DNA of 64,000 bases from Propionibacteriaceae bacterium P6A17 (GTDB taxonomy: Bacteria; Actinomycetota; Actinomycetes; Propionibacteriales; Propionibacteriaceae): assembly GCA_000619965.1 (NCBI GenBank), contig JHVD01000006.1, positions 124,001 through 188,000 on the forward strand, written 5' to 3'. This document shows, in pieces, positions 2,107 to 27,890 of the stretch. How positions within the stretch are numbered: position 1 is the stretch's first letter; each line of letters opens with the position of its first letter. A program made the translations under genes and the position numbers. Below the pieces are notes generated by a model. It did not search any database. It had not been told where the DNA came from and saw nothing but the letters and a program-made list of their open reading frames with translations.

Positions 2107-3051
2107 TCAGTGCACCCAGCCGCGGCGCGCCGCCTGGACGCCGAGTTGGAACCTCGATTGGGCCTCCAGCAACTCGCTGAGATCGGCGACGCGACGAGCA
2201 GCCGTTCGCTGGCTGACGCCCATCTCGCGCGCGATGGCCTGATCGGTCAGCCCGCGCGAGAGCATGCCGATGAGCTGCAGGGTCTCGGAGGTTGGTTCCT
2301 CGACGAGCTGCTCCGAGTCCTTCCTGCGTTGGCGCAGGCTCACGGGCATCGCCTGCTGCCACCAGCGGTCGAACATGCCGTGCAACAGCGCCACGAGAGC
2401 CGCCAGCAGCACGCGACGCGCCATGATGGGTCCCTCCGGCCCCGGTGTCACCAACAGCGCTTCCTCGCCGTCGCGCAGCAGCATGCACAGCGGCAGCTGC
2501 TGGATGATCCGCACCTCCGGGCCGCCGGCGACGGCACGTTCCACCTCCTCCGCGCCCCGGGACTCATGGAGTGCGCCCTCGTCGAAGATGATCCGCATCT
2601 CCACGCCCCGGTTGGTCGCGTCCTCCCGAGCCTCGGCGAGCTCCCCGGTGATGAGCGGGCCGCATCCGCGGACGCCGTCCCATATGGAGACCCTTCCGCG
2701 GGCGTTCTTCAGGAGCAGCGCCGAGGCGTCGCGGATCTCCTCGGGGTCGAGGATGCTGTGGATCCTGCCGCGGTTGTCCCCCTCGATCGCGCTGTCGAGG
2801 AGGTTGGCCACGAGCTGGAGCCGCTGCGACTGGGAGTCGAGGGCGTCGGCGCGCGTCCGCAACGCCTGGCTGTAGCGCGTCAAGCCGGTCTCATCGTCGT
2901 CGTAGGGTTCGCCGATGCGTCCCTGCTCGAGCAGCGCGCGCGCCACGGGATCGAGGCTGGCACTCTGCCCCCTGAGGAAGTCGAGAATGGATTCCCAATC
3001 GTTCCCCACCCAATCGGGGGTGTCGCTGCCGTCCGGTGCCATGGCGGCCAT
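2107..3051 (-). CDS. LuxR/HTH-type transcriptional regulator with a phospholipase-D-like sensor region
   Basis: About 314 residues. The N-terminal half has short helical segments including LARARALLEQ-like runs. The middle (LLKNARGRV...MRIIFDEGAL...VRIIQQLPLCMLL) resembles the PLD-like ligand-binding fold seen in TrmB/LuxR-type regulators. The C-terminus carries an HTH (LIGMLSRGLTDQAIAREMG followed by SQRTAARRVADLSELL), like a LuxR DNA-binding domain. Two nearby ATGs (3051 and 3042) are possible starts; neither has a strong Shine-Dalgarno. It faces phoX across a 189-base divergent gap, but nothing shows that it controls it. Confidence 0.7.
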   Translation of the reverse strand: MAAMAPDGSDTPDWVGNDWESILDFLRGQSASLDPVARALLEQGRIGEPYDDDETGLTRYSQALRTRADALDSQSQRLQLVANLLDSAIEGDNRGRIHSILDPEEIRDASALLLKNARGRVSIWDGVRGCGPLITGELAEAREDATNRGVEMRIIFDEGALHESRGAEEVERAVAGGPEVRIIQQLPLCMLLRDGEEALLVTPGPEGPIMARRVLLAALVALLHGMFDRWWQQAMPVSLRQRRKDSEQLVEEPTSETLQLIGMLSRGLTDQAIAREMGVSQRTAARRVADLSELLEAQSRFQLGVQAARRGWVH

Positions 3052-3240
3052 GCTAGCGCCGCAATTTCGATCACCGCGAAGGGTCCCACTCCAATGGACC
3101 GACCAAGCTTGTCGACGCCCAGTCGCTCCGAGTGTTCGTTGAACGTTCATCCGAAGTTCACGCGATCCTGCCCAAGCCGACCACCGCGGATCGCTTGGAT
3201 GTGTGCCAGTCCATCCTCACCAGGAAAGGTCGATCTCTCG

Positions 3241-25037: not shown

Positions 25038-25407
25038 CGCGTCCTCCTCCCTGCGTTCGACGTCCCGCCCCGGGGCGCGACCGCCGCGGTGTGCGTCGTC
25101 GTGCTCAGCCTACGAGCACCTGCGCGGGGTGTGGGGAGCGGGCAGGCGTCTGGCCCGTGGCGCTGCTCGAATGGCGCGAGTGCGGCTGGGATGCCCGGGG
25201 TGGAGGCTCGGGATACAAGCTCGGGTCGGTGGCGGGCTCAGGCCCATGCCGGTGTCCACGGGGACACCAAGCTCAGGGATTCAATCCACGCCCCAACCCC
25301 ACTCCCCGAGCCCCCAGCGGGCCCCTGGTGATACGGATCTGCGCGTCTTTGTCGCCCAACGGGCTATTGGGTCGCCGACTGGCGCAGGGTCGCCTACGCT
25401 GTTTGGC
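25038..25407. other. 370-bp gap without a recognisable gene
   Basis: Open frames crossing this stretch lack start signals and resemble nothing I know. It contains the upstream region of the erm leader peptide, so the erm promoter must lie in its right part, but I could not pick out a convincing -35/-10 pair. The left part may be the junction between backbone and island. Confidence 0.4.
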
Positions 25408-25452
25408 ATGTTGGTTTACGGCACTGCTTCGCTGCGTCTGCGCAGCCGCTGA
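25408..25452 (+). CDS. Erm leader peptide (14 codons) with RLR stalling motif
   Basis: The short frame encodes MLVYGTASLRLRSR. Its sequence is close to the leader I recall for corynebacterial erm(X) (MLISGTAFLRLR...). RLR-type leaders stall ribosomes in the presence of macrolides and switch on the downstream methyltransferase. It ends 102 bases before the erm start, and hairpin-forming sequence lies between the two. It is too short for normal gene calling, but position and motif support it. Confidence 0.75.
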   Translation: MLVYGTASLRLRSR

Positions 25453-25528
25453 CGGCGGCGAGCACCCTCCACAGGTTGTGGCTCCCGCCCCCGGTGATCA
25501 CGGCCGGGCGGCGTTCTCAGCGTGCCCG

Positions 25529-25549
25529 GCTCCGCAACAACCAAGGAGC
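25529..25549 (+). promoter_or_regulatory. Shine-Dalgarno-sequestering hairpin of the erm attenuator
   Basis: GCTCC (25529-25533) can pair with GGAGC (25545-25549), the core of the erm ribosome-binding site. Upstream, GGTTGTGGCTCC can compete for both ACAACC and GGAGC, which would give alternative folds as in translational attenuators. Pairing is read by eye and not folded computationally. Confidence 0.5.
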
Positions 25550-25554
25550 AAACA

Positions 25555-26370
25555 GTGCCTACCCATCGCGGTGGCCGTCATGAGCACGGCCAGAACTTCC
25601 TGACTGACCCATCCATCATCGCCACGATCAGGCGGCTCGTCGCCGCCACCGAGGGTCCGATCATCGAGATCGGCCCCGGTGACGGAGCGCTCACCTCCCC
25701 GCTCGCCCAGCTCGGGCGACCGGTCACGGCCGTCGAAATCGACACCCGTCTCGCCCGACGCCTGGCCCAACGGGTCCCGCCGCACGTGCAGGTTGTCGCC
25801 GACGACTTCCTGACCTTCCGGCTTCCCACGTCTGCGCATGTGATCGTCGGCAACCTGCCGTTCCACCAGACCACTGCCATGCTGCGACGCATCCTGCACA
25901 CCGATGCCTGGACCGATGCCATCGTGCTCGTGCAATGGGAAGTTGCGCGACGCAGGGCAGGCGTGGGCGGTGCCACCATGATGACCGCGCAATGGGCACC
26001 GTGGTTCGAGTTCGATCTGCACGGCCGGGTCCCGGCCCGAGCGTTCACCCCACGTCCGGGCGTCGACGGCGGGATCCTCACCCTCCATCGCCGCGAACAC
26101 CCGCTGGTGTCCCCGGCGCGCAGAATCCAGTTCCAGACATTGGTGCATCGGACCTACACCGGGTCAGGGCGGGGGCTCGCCGACATCCTCGCACGCTCCA
26201 GCGCACTCGGTACGCCGCAAGTCGCGCGCTCATGGCTGCAACGCCACGGCATCCAGGCGGCCGCGCTGCCGAAGGACTTGCCCATCGAGGCTTGGGTGGA
26301 CTTGTTCGAGTCCACGGGAGCCTCGCCGCCGCGCCGTGCGGGCACACGGTCCGGAAGGTGCCGTCGATGA
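25555..26370 (+). CDS. erm(X)-like: Erm(X)-like 23S rRNA (adenine(2058)-N6)-methyltransferase
   Basis: 271 residues. The Erm family di-methylates A2058 of 23S rRNA and gives macrolide-lincosamide-streptogramin B resistance. Seen here: GRHEHGQNFL at 7-16, SAM-binding EIGPGDG (38-44), acidic VEIDTRLARRL, DDFL, and the NLPFH catalytic motif (100-104), then QWEVARRRAGVGGATMMTAQW, which is the erm(X)-type segment. The basic tail RSGRCRR is also typical. GTG 25555 follows AAGGAGC. A leader peptide precedes it and an AraC-type gene overlaps its stop. Probably acquired with the island. Confidence 0.93.
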   Translation: MPTHRGGRHEHGQNFLTDPSIIATIRRLVAATEGPIIEIGPGDGALTSPLAQLGRPVTAVEIDTRLARRLAQRVPPHVQVVADDFLTFRLPTSAHVIVGNLPFHQTTAMLRRILHTDAWTDAIVLVQWEVARRRAGVGGATMMTAQWAPWFEFDLHGRVPARAFTPRPGVDGGILTLHRREHPLVSPARRIQFQTLVHRTYTGSGRGLADILARSSALGTPQVARSWLQRHGIQAAALPKDLPIEAWVDLFESTGASPPRRAGTRSGRCRR

Positions 26371-26846
26371 GCCGCGCACCGTCGAGGCCGGGCCGACCCC
26401 ACCCGGAAACGACTACCCAAGTGGCACCGAGCCAGAGCGCCGCACGCCAGGCGGCATGGCTGCTCGACCAGCATCCCGCACGGCCATGGCGACTTCGGGA
26501 TCTGGCCGACGAGGTGCACCTGTCGACGTCGCAACTGGGCAGGGCTTTCACGCAGCGATTCGGGATGCCACCGATGCAGTATCTGGCTCGGGCCCGGGCG
26601 CAGCGCCTGGCATGGCTCTTGATGGAGACCGACCTTCCGATCGGGGTCGCCATGGCCGAGGTCGGGTGGCGCAGCCGCGGCCACGCAGCGCGGCAGTTCG
26701 CGGAGCTCATGGGCGTCTCCCCCAGCGAGTTTCGGTCGCAGCTCCGCGCCCGCGCGGGCAGGCTCCCCGCTACCTGGGAGGCTCTCGCGGCGAAGGGGGG
26801 ACGGCCCGATCCATCTCCGGACAGCCAGCGGCGCCCCGGAGAATAG
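26367..26846 (+). CDS. AraC-family HTH regulator
   Basis: 159 residues. Two HTH units are visible: WRLRDLADEVHLSTSQLGRAFTQRFG-type helix pair, then GVAMAEVGWRSRGHAARQFAELMGVSPSEFR, the standard AraC DNA-binding domain. There is no N-terminal ligand-binding domain, so it is the short (MarA/SoxS-size) form. ATG 26367 overlaps the erm stop (ATGA), so it is translated with the resistance gene. It may control the island or its own operon; no operator was identified. Confidence 0.82.
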   Translation: MSRAPSRPGRPHPETTTQVAPSQSAARQAAWLLDQHPARPWRLRDLADEVHLSTSQLGRAFTQRFGMPPMQYLARARAQRLAWLLMETDLPIGVAMAEVGWRSRGHAARQFAELMGVSPSEFRSQLRARAGRLPATWEALAAKGGRPDPSPDSQRRPGE

Positions 26847-26935
26847 GCGGCTGACCGGCGCCTGGGCTGGACACTCCCCGGCGTGCCATCGCACCCTTGG
26901 TGTACTTCATCGTCGCAGTGCTGACGTTGACGATC

Positions 26936-27618
26936 GCCCAGGGGGCGGTGGTGGAACTGGTCGACGTGGTCGTCCAGCTCGGCGGCCACGGCTCACCTTC
27001 ATCACCGCTGACGCCCTCACCATGAAGGTCCGTGAGAGCGGCCGCGTCATCAACACGGTCGTGATGCTCGCGACCGGCGTCAACGCCGACGAGCACCGCG
27101 AAGTCCTCGGCCTGCGCGTCGCAACCACCGAGACCGGCCCGGCCTGGCACGAGTTCTTCGCCGACCTGGTCGCCCGCAGCCTGACCGGGGCCCGGCTCGT
27201 GACCTCCGACGCCCAGCGGTCTGCGACCAGCCCCACACCCACGCCGTCCACACCCAATTCGACCGGCTCCTCGACTACACCAGCGACAAGCTCCCCGCCG
27301 TCACCGACCACCTCGACCACGCCCGGGCCGACATCCTCGCCTTCACCACCTTCCCCGACCGAGGTCTGGCACCAGATCTGGTCGAACAACCCCACCCAAC
27401 GCCTCAACCGGGAAATCCGCCGCCCCACCGATTCCGTCGGGATCTTCCCCAACCGAGCCGCGATCGTCCGCCCCATCGGCGCCGTCCCGGCCAAGCAAAC
27501 CGACGAACAGGCCGAAGGACGCCACCACCTCGGCCTCGAAATCCTCGCCAAGAACCGCAAGACCCCCATCACCAACCAGCCCGAACAGCACACCACCATG
27601 CCCGCACTCGCCAGCTAA
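26936..27618 (+). pseudogene. Scrambled IS256-family (mutator-type) transposase remnant
   Basis: On the + strand FITADALTMKVRESGRVINTVVMLATGVNADEHREVLG (from 26998) and the C-terminal IWSNNPTQRLNREIRRPTDSVGIFPNRA are IS256-type. Between TSDAQR and HTQFDRLL the core with the catalytic residues is deleted, and the middle runs in a different frame (27219-27360). Just upstream, 26936-26989 encodes the preceding transposase segment (AAELDDHVDQFHHRPLG) on the opposite strand, so a piece has been inverted. The element cannot make an active transposase. Confidence 0.75.
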
Positions 27619-27810: not shown

Positions 27811-27816
27811 TCTCGG

Positions 27817-27890
<74 letters not shown>

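Follow-up and report, generated by a model that had tools for sequence, protein, structure and literature searches.

A conserved erm–araC unit in Propionibacteriaceae with an RLR leader peptide and an upstream box: a candidate self-amplifying, drug-inducible resistance operon

The window analysed here is a stretch of 64,000 nucleotides from the 2.73-Mb genome of Propionibacteriaceae bacterium P6A17 (contig JHVD01000006.1, positions 124,001 to 188,000). It holds, all on the + strand and in this order, a 21-bp box, a -10-like hexamer, a leader ORF with an RLR motif, erm and araC (Table 1). The box and the hexamer are additional to the elements described in an earlier note on this DNA. YqeY and YjbR-type genes lie on the 5' side of the unit. 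On the 3' side, a Mutator-family transposase fragment (27022–27618) adjoins it, followed by a gene for tRNA-Pro (27815–27890). We found no repeats flanking the unit that were convincing as insertion marks, and an Rfam scan gave no match at the unit and one tRNA within the window.

Table 1. Features of the unit, with positions counted from the first letter of the window.
Feature	Position	Strand	Basis
21-bp box GATACGGATCTGCGCGTCTTT, proposed AraC site, 78-58 nt before leader ATG	25330..25350	+	conservation over loci
-10-like hexamer TACGCT, 7 nt before leader ATG	25395..25400	+	TAnnCT in 16/16 loci
Leader peptide MLVYGTASLRLRSR, RLR motif, 14 codons	25408..25452	+	ATG 25408, stop ending 25452; conserved
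Leader arm GCACTG, can pair with erm start region	25421..25426	+	helix 1, 99% of cells paired
Post-leader hairpin, 5' arm CGGCGAGC, one bulge	25456..25463	+	helix 3, 100% of cells paired
Post-leader hairpin, 3' arm GCTCCCG	25481..25487	+	helix 3
GCCGGGC, 5' arm of further hairpin	25503..25509	+	helix 2, 100% of cells paired
GCCCGGC, 3' arm of GCCGGGC hairpin	25524..25530	+	same motif upstream of pAP2 erm(X)
GCTCC, arm pairing with Shine-Dalgarno	25529..25533	+	helix 4
GGAGC, erm Shine-Dalgarno and 3' arm of local hairpin	25545..25549	+	sequence, consensus fold
CAGTGC including erm GTG start, partner of leader arm GCACTG	25553..25558	+	consensus fold, pairing probability
erm, predicted 23S rRNA adenine methyltransferase, 271 aa; GTG start at 25555 with AGGAGC ahead	25555..26370	+	NCBIfam Erm23S_rRNA_broad 273 bits (cut-off 212); Pfam RrnaAD
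GGAAGG, Shine-Dalgarno-like site of araC, inside erm	26353..26358	+	sequence; junctions of 17 loci
araC, single-domain AraC-type regulator, 159 aa	26367..26846	+	Pfam HTH_18 74.5 bits, cut-off 33.6

The erm product scores well above the cut-off of the curated broad Erm model, which bears out its earlier assignment to the Erm family, and we predict that it is an Erm methyltransferase. The narrower label given in the note, 'erm(X)-type', does not hold. Identity to full-length plasmid Erm(X) is 55–56% (58% over an 80% piece), ruling out an Erm(X) allele; none of the allele-level Erm models listed reached its cut-off, and no Erm(X) model was among the matches. The araC product matches AraC-type HTH models only. 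By sequence it is of the AraC/XylS single-domain type, predicted to lack an N-terminal ligand domain, and a sequence search of solved structures gave seven closest chains, all AraC-type DNA-binding domains and none of them MarA.

The araC start codon overlaps the erm stop as ATGA, as the note had pointed out, and this junction is kept in all 17 distinct erm–araC loci that we collected (L and G numbers denote loci and genomes; L045 equals L013, and L047 equals L109). The araC gene is intact in 15 of the 17 loci, L013 having an in-frame stop and L109 a shortened gene; the 14 intact copies besides that of the window encode 110–159 aa. In G006, a second, diverged AraC gene directly follows the erm-linked one (L006/L121:8155-8562).

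Erm proteins at E 1e-50 or better were found in 14 of the 39 genomes of the genus, at 15 loci. Leader, box and araC are present at 14 of these loci; the exception, L015 (Erm 49% identity), is without box and araC. At the same level, 44 of the 391 genomes of the order have an Erm, in 47 places. Outside the genus, the unit occurs in another genus of the family (L046, in G265) and in G226 (L047), the latter identical to Nocardioides sp. QY071 plasmid pCHL, with its shortened araC. A separate scan located it in Actinomyces gerencseriae (L044). Because the same order recurs in the genus, in another genus of the family, on a Nocardioides plasmid and in A. gerencseriae, the arrangement of leader, erm and araC is not due to chance. 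On the Nocardioides plasmid (L109:3775-5031), where erm is open, the box has three mismatches, and transposase genes flank the unit on both sides. G035 has two different erm–araC units (L005/L016), each with leader and box.

Judged by coordinates, 14 of the 47 places in the order had neither an AraC (E 1e-20) nor a box (≤2 mismatches) adjoining. A scan of the class (394 genomes) for Erm at an E value of 1e-80 or better yielded 16 genomes besides that of the window, and neither araC nor box was seen in any of them. We also compared 35 other Erm loci of at most 63% identity (L015, L048-L062, L112-L114, L130-L145), among which L054/L055 and L114/L137 look like near-copies. No adjacent AraC was seen at any of the 35, the contigs of L053 and L132 ending <300 nt from erm, and the best match to the box within 450 nt upstream had 6–8 mismatches in every case. 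L052 has a weak AraC match ~750 nt off erm. L048, with an Erm 63% identical, has a leader, MLVLGTASLRLRRR, and is without AraC and box. G119, which lies outside the 35, has an Erm 51–53% identical, then a full-length AraC ~34 nt on; the box is missing at its erm leader, and weak boxes are present at the araC end.

In a tree of 34 rows, all 15 intact AraCs linked to erm group together as a single clade (support 96/92; 98% of 200 bootstrap trees), and a single origin of the erm–araC pairing is supported by these sequences. One six-member group is set apart in both the AraC and the Erm tree; the Erm tree is otherwise poorly resolved. For the 45 pairs (of 105) with usable dS, median dN/dS was 0.29 in araC and 0.21 in erm, with maxima of 0.49 and 0.30, respectively; purifying selection acts on both. 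Synonymous divergence was greater in araC than in erm for 39 of the 45 pairs, and by a factor above 1.5 in 21 of them, and hence the two genes may not share their entire history: units may have swapped their erm genes, or araC may be the faster-evolving gene.

Control of erm by a leader is usually described as a translational switch. The window has what such an attenuator calls for, a short ORF with an arrest motif lying ahead of erm. This ORF, already recognized in the note as a 14-codon RLR leader, is conserved: a related leader peptide of 13–14 aa is present in 16 of the 17 loci, while in L047/L109 the frame stays open and runs on. The peptide is also akin to the leader annotated for Erm(X) on pAP2, MLISGTAFLRLRSNR. 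ErmD-type leaders have the Arg-Leu-Arg arrest motif in common with it, in a different peptide. With ErmDL, a telithromycin toeprint places Leu7 of the RLR motif in the P site, and RLR is dispensable for stalling with erythromycin, according to the passages available from PMC8298421; given the latter result, the inducer cannot be told from the motif alone. In the part of PMC3350403 available, it is suggested that the erm(X) leader might act through erythromycin-inducible translational attenuation.

We folded the RNA between leader and erm by consensus, using 18 aligned sequences (17 distinct). Four helices were kept, with 97–100% of cells paired: leader with erm start, a hairpin of the RLR codons, the post-leader hairpin and the Shine-Dalgarno hairpin. 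GCCGGGC/GCCCGGC makes a fifth helix, which overlaps the Shine-Dalgarno hairpin. These conserved helices agree with the proposal of attenuator-like RNA ahead of erm, and the local hairpin said to hide the erm Shine-Dalgarno is among them, 25529-25533 being paired with 25545-25549 in 100% of cells. The note further proposed that an upstream stretch, GGTTGTGGCTCC (25474-25485), competes for the same bases. The stretch exists and its GCTCC could pair with GGAGC, but the consensus fold pairs it with 25456-25463 instead. A GGTTGT/ACAACC alternative helix was set aside, with only 78% of cells paired.

Ensemble folding was done for 19 sequences in three states, one of them with leader nt 1-47 blocked. 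GGAG stayed paired throughout, with an openness of 0.00–0.24 in all 19 sequences and all three states. The fold check suggested in the note thus turned up, in silico, no structure that frees the Shine-Dalgarno, and its exposure as the switch is unsupported. The start codon behaved differently. Blocking the leader raised its openness by at least 0.2 in 14 of the 19 sequences (from 0.00 to 0.26 in the window), hardly changed it in L007, L046 and L047, and lowered it in L044 and erm(X). With the leader blocked, openness was at most 0.44 everywhere except L044 (0.48; more open when free), and part of the opening is built in, because the block covers the leader arm.

Pairing probability for the leader/start-codon helix was 0.99–1.00 in 11 of 14 sequences and 0.37–0.83 in the other three. 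Shuffling the leader codons weakens this pairing. When they were permuted in 14 sequences (5 near-copies dropped), the original was matched by 0–3 of 40 permutations in 11 sequences and by 10–15 of 40 in L044, L048 and erm(X). Covariation is thin because the sequences are too alike: there is one double change, 28 of 500 shuffles were as good, and the score of 0.043 is nearly equalled when the alignment is slid by 3 columns (0.041). The full-length RNA folded 1.5 sd below shuffles (14/200 as good), and the RNA past the leader only 0.6 sd below (51/200). On these models, attenuation by release of the start codon is more plausible than by release of the Shine-Dalgarno, and a stalled ribosome could break the leader/start-codon helix in most sequences.

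The box, with the consensus GATACnnATCTnCGCrTCTTy, is matched with at most one mismatch in 16 of the 17 erm–araC loci, L109 being the exception. Over 12 distinct loci, the majority fraction is 0.90 in the box and 0.75 in the -10 region, with 0.50 far upstream and 0.57 between box and -10. Spacing is nearly fixed as well. Fifteen of 16 loci have 44–46 nt between box end and -10, and L014 has 35 nt, about one helix turn less; the -10 hexamer precedes the leader ATG by 7 nt in 15 loci and by 6 nt in L016. Since the -10 hexamer lies only 6–7 nt ahead of the leader ATG, the transcript is probably leaderless. No promoter with both hexamers was found in 25200-27000.

We then looked for the box in the 391 genomes of the order. 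All 11 exact matches lie before these erm leaders. There were 8 one-mismatch matches, 4 at erm leaders and 4 outside erm loci (L126-L129). At ≤2 mismatches the count was 63, compared to 6 for the reversed control; 15 of the 63 lie at these erm leaders, 1 at the end of an orphan araC and 47 elsewhere. Codon usage may be the cause of the excess of two-mismatch matches elsewhere. In the genome of the window, ≤3 mismatches gave the erm box and two weak sites only. One caveat here is that the box marks one clade, and hence the erm loci with both box and araC do not count as phylogenetically independent cases.

Related AraC proteins outside the erm-linked clade are mostly longer, with open frames of ~300 residues or more, and several belong to elements that also encode Prim-Pol and ArdC N-terminal domains together with a MobF relaxase (229 bits, cut-off 100). 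We built a model of the box from the erm loci and ran it on 16 loci of such AraCs (139.5 kb). It gave 10 sites above 12 bits (1, 0 and 0 in resampled sequence), 13 above 10 bits (0, 2 and 0) and 16 above 8 bits (3, 0 and 5). Of the ten sites above 12 bits, nine are no more than ~60 nt from where an araC gene ends, and one lies ~225 nt before ardC. The second recognition helix reads SRGHA(A/S)R in 9 of the 16 AraCs, and a box lies at the gene end in 7 of these 9 (L080 and L081 are without it) and in none of the 7 AraCs with other helices. This comparison leaves aside the near-copies L084 and L092, and its Fisher P value of 0.003 is descriptive only, as the grouping was drawn after seeing the data and the rows are related. 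Three more AraCs fall outside the count of 16: a 12.6-bit site lies close to the ends of two identical short ones that follow MFS genes (SRGNAAR), and no box site is present for the second AraC of G006.

The agreement between helix and box, along with the sites at araC ends, offers the best, though indirect, support for the view that AraCs of this family read the box. The geometry differs from that of the erm loci, as the boxes of the elements lie behind araC. Tandem boxes behind orphan araC genes beat most control windows in only three of the 16 loci (L078, L082 and L083, with at most 7 of 200 controls as good), and we therefore do not claim them for all.

We lean, with moderate confidence, towards the unit being a self-amplifying, drug-inducible resistance operon in which AraC activates its own promoter. 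Transcription would start at or beside the leader ATG, to judge from the -10 hexamer. In the drug-free cell, the leader would be translated or left folded, and RNA pairing would keep the erm start closed. A macrolide would stall the ribosome at the RLR codons, breaking the leader/start-codon helix and allowing translation of erm, which the ATGA overlap would pass on into araC. Since AraC is a short protein without a ligand domain, its amount would act as its signal. AraC would then bind the 21-bp box, centred ~68 bp before the start, and activate a promoter that has no good -35.

MarA/SoxS-type activators likewise have two HTH motifs and no ligand domain, and they bind an asymmetric site of ~20 bp. 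The AraC of the window resembles them in this, but it is encoded inside the operon proposed as its target. CTnDOT tetQ-rteA-rteB provides a parallel for the layout, with a drug-sensing attenuator before a resistance gene and regulators downstream in one operon; it has TetQ where the window has Erm and a two-component system where the window has AraC, and no element genes were found in the window. A further close system is erm(X) with its leader peptide, known from corynebacterial and Trueperella plasmids. On pAP2, a similar leader with the RLR motif follows a -10 hexamer at a distance of 7 nt, the inverted repeats GCCGGGC/GCCCGGC and CTCC/GGAG precede erm(X), and the transcript looks leaderless as well. 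The pAP2 unit differs in having TATAAT as the -10 and in being without box and AraC gene, besides the divergence of Erm given above. The unit is real and conserved, its leader part is of a known kind, and what is new is the proposed feedback through AraC and the box. A search of the open-access literature brought up no paper on an erm–araC unit, and AraC does not occur in the passages available from PMC8914350.

A regulator that binds the box could also act in the opposite sense. AraC might repress its own operon, a negative feedback limiting Erm and the cost of rRNA methylation; box, coupling and conservation fit this equally well, and sequence does not tell activation from repression. Most single-domain AraC proteins are activators, however, and the box lies upstream of the expected -35 rather than over the promoter. 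The near-fixed distance between box and -10, departing only once and then by about a helix turn, and the failure to find a promoter with both hexamers also argue against repression, which we consider unlikely. That AraC plays no part in erm regulation, being a passenger behind erm, with the box a plain promoter element, seems least probable to us. L013 retains the box with one mismatch in spite of the in-frame stop in its araC, and L109 has a shortened araC beside an open erm, as a passenger would allow; in L109, however, the box is altered too. The ATGA overlap in all 17 loci, a dN/dS of ~0.3 and the copies of the box at araC genes outside the erm-linked clade likewise speak against a passenger.

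It might instead be that araC mainly serves the mobile elements from which the unit came, where resistance cargo, AraC and ArdC region would be wired together for the regulator to act on element genes, and that the copy in the window is a remnant whose local role is minor. In L115, L118, L119 and L120, homologues stand between resistance-type cargo (Erm, ABC-F-like, MFS) and genes for ArdC-N, Prim-Pol and MobF relaxase; the boxes there lie at the araC end, ahead of ardC, and the window is without a match to these element genes. Against this, the box of the erm-linked clade keeps almost the same position ahead of the erm leader, and purifying selection on araC extends to L121-L124 and L044, where the 6–16 kb examined gave no element-gene match. 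We regard this explanation as quite unlikely. An extension of the self-amplifying operon would join the two functions: where the unit still sits in a conjugative-type element of the MobF/ArdC kind, the same drug-stalled leader might lead AraC to switch on both its own operon and the ArdC region. We offer this as speculation, with the chances against it.

If the self-amplifying operon is real, a conserved regulator made from the same switch and acting at a conserved candidate site in the operon's promoter would supplement attenuation with feedback at the level of transcription, and induction could be faster, stronger and possibly bistable. If AraC were also to drive the ArdC region, one antibiotic-stalled leader would trigger both resistance and a step in the establishment or transfer of the element. 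The wider AraC family adjoins several resistance-type cargos directed at ribosome-targeting drugs in mobile elements, MFS–AraC pairs on E. coli and Salmonella plasmids included.

On E. coli plasmid pN56338-1 (L110:4063-7545) and Salmonella plasmid p34514-2 (L148:3063-5375), from pork/turkey, an MFS gene is followed by an AraC gene of the wider family. The MFS protein of L110 is nearest the Lmr(A) lincomycin-efflux model (451 bits, below the cut-off of 850), and a stretch 64% identical to the ArdC-type protein of L120 follows araC. The ~120 nt between araC and ardC look conserved by eye in L078, L082, L091, L111 and L110 (TAGTCCGGTAnGGACTCGTCGGGTTC...); an Rfam scan of four loci with this stretch gave no match attributable to it. 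In L118 (2985-19501), an element of the MobF/ArdC type, a resistance-type cluster includes erm–araC and a second short AraC. This cluster also has a gene nearest the TlrC/CarA-type ABC-F proteins (396 bits, cut-off 800), GNAT-like and TetR-like genes (labels from the L120 copies), and a partial MFS gene beside a Mutator transposase. L091 carries, at 2976-3128, a match to the ALIL pseudoknot (RF01497) of 54.9 bits, the gathering score being 50.
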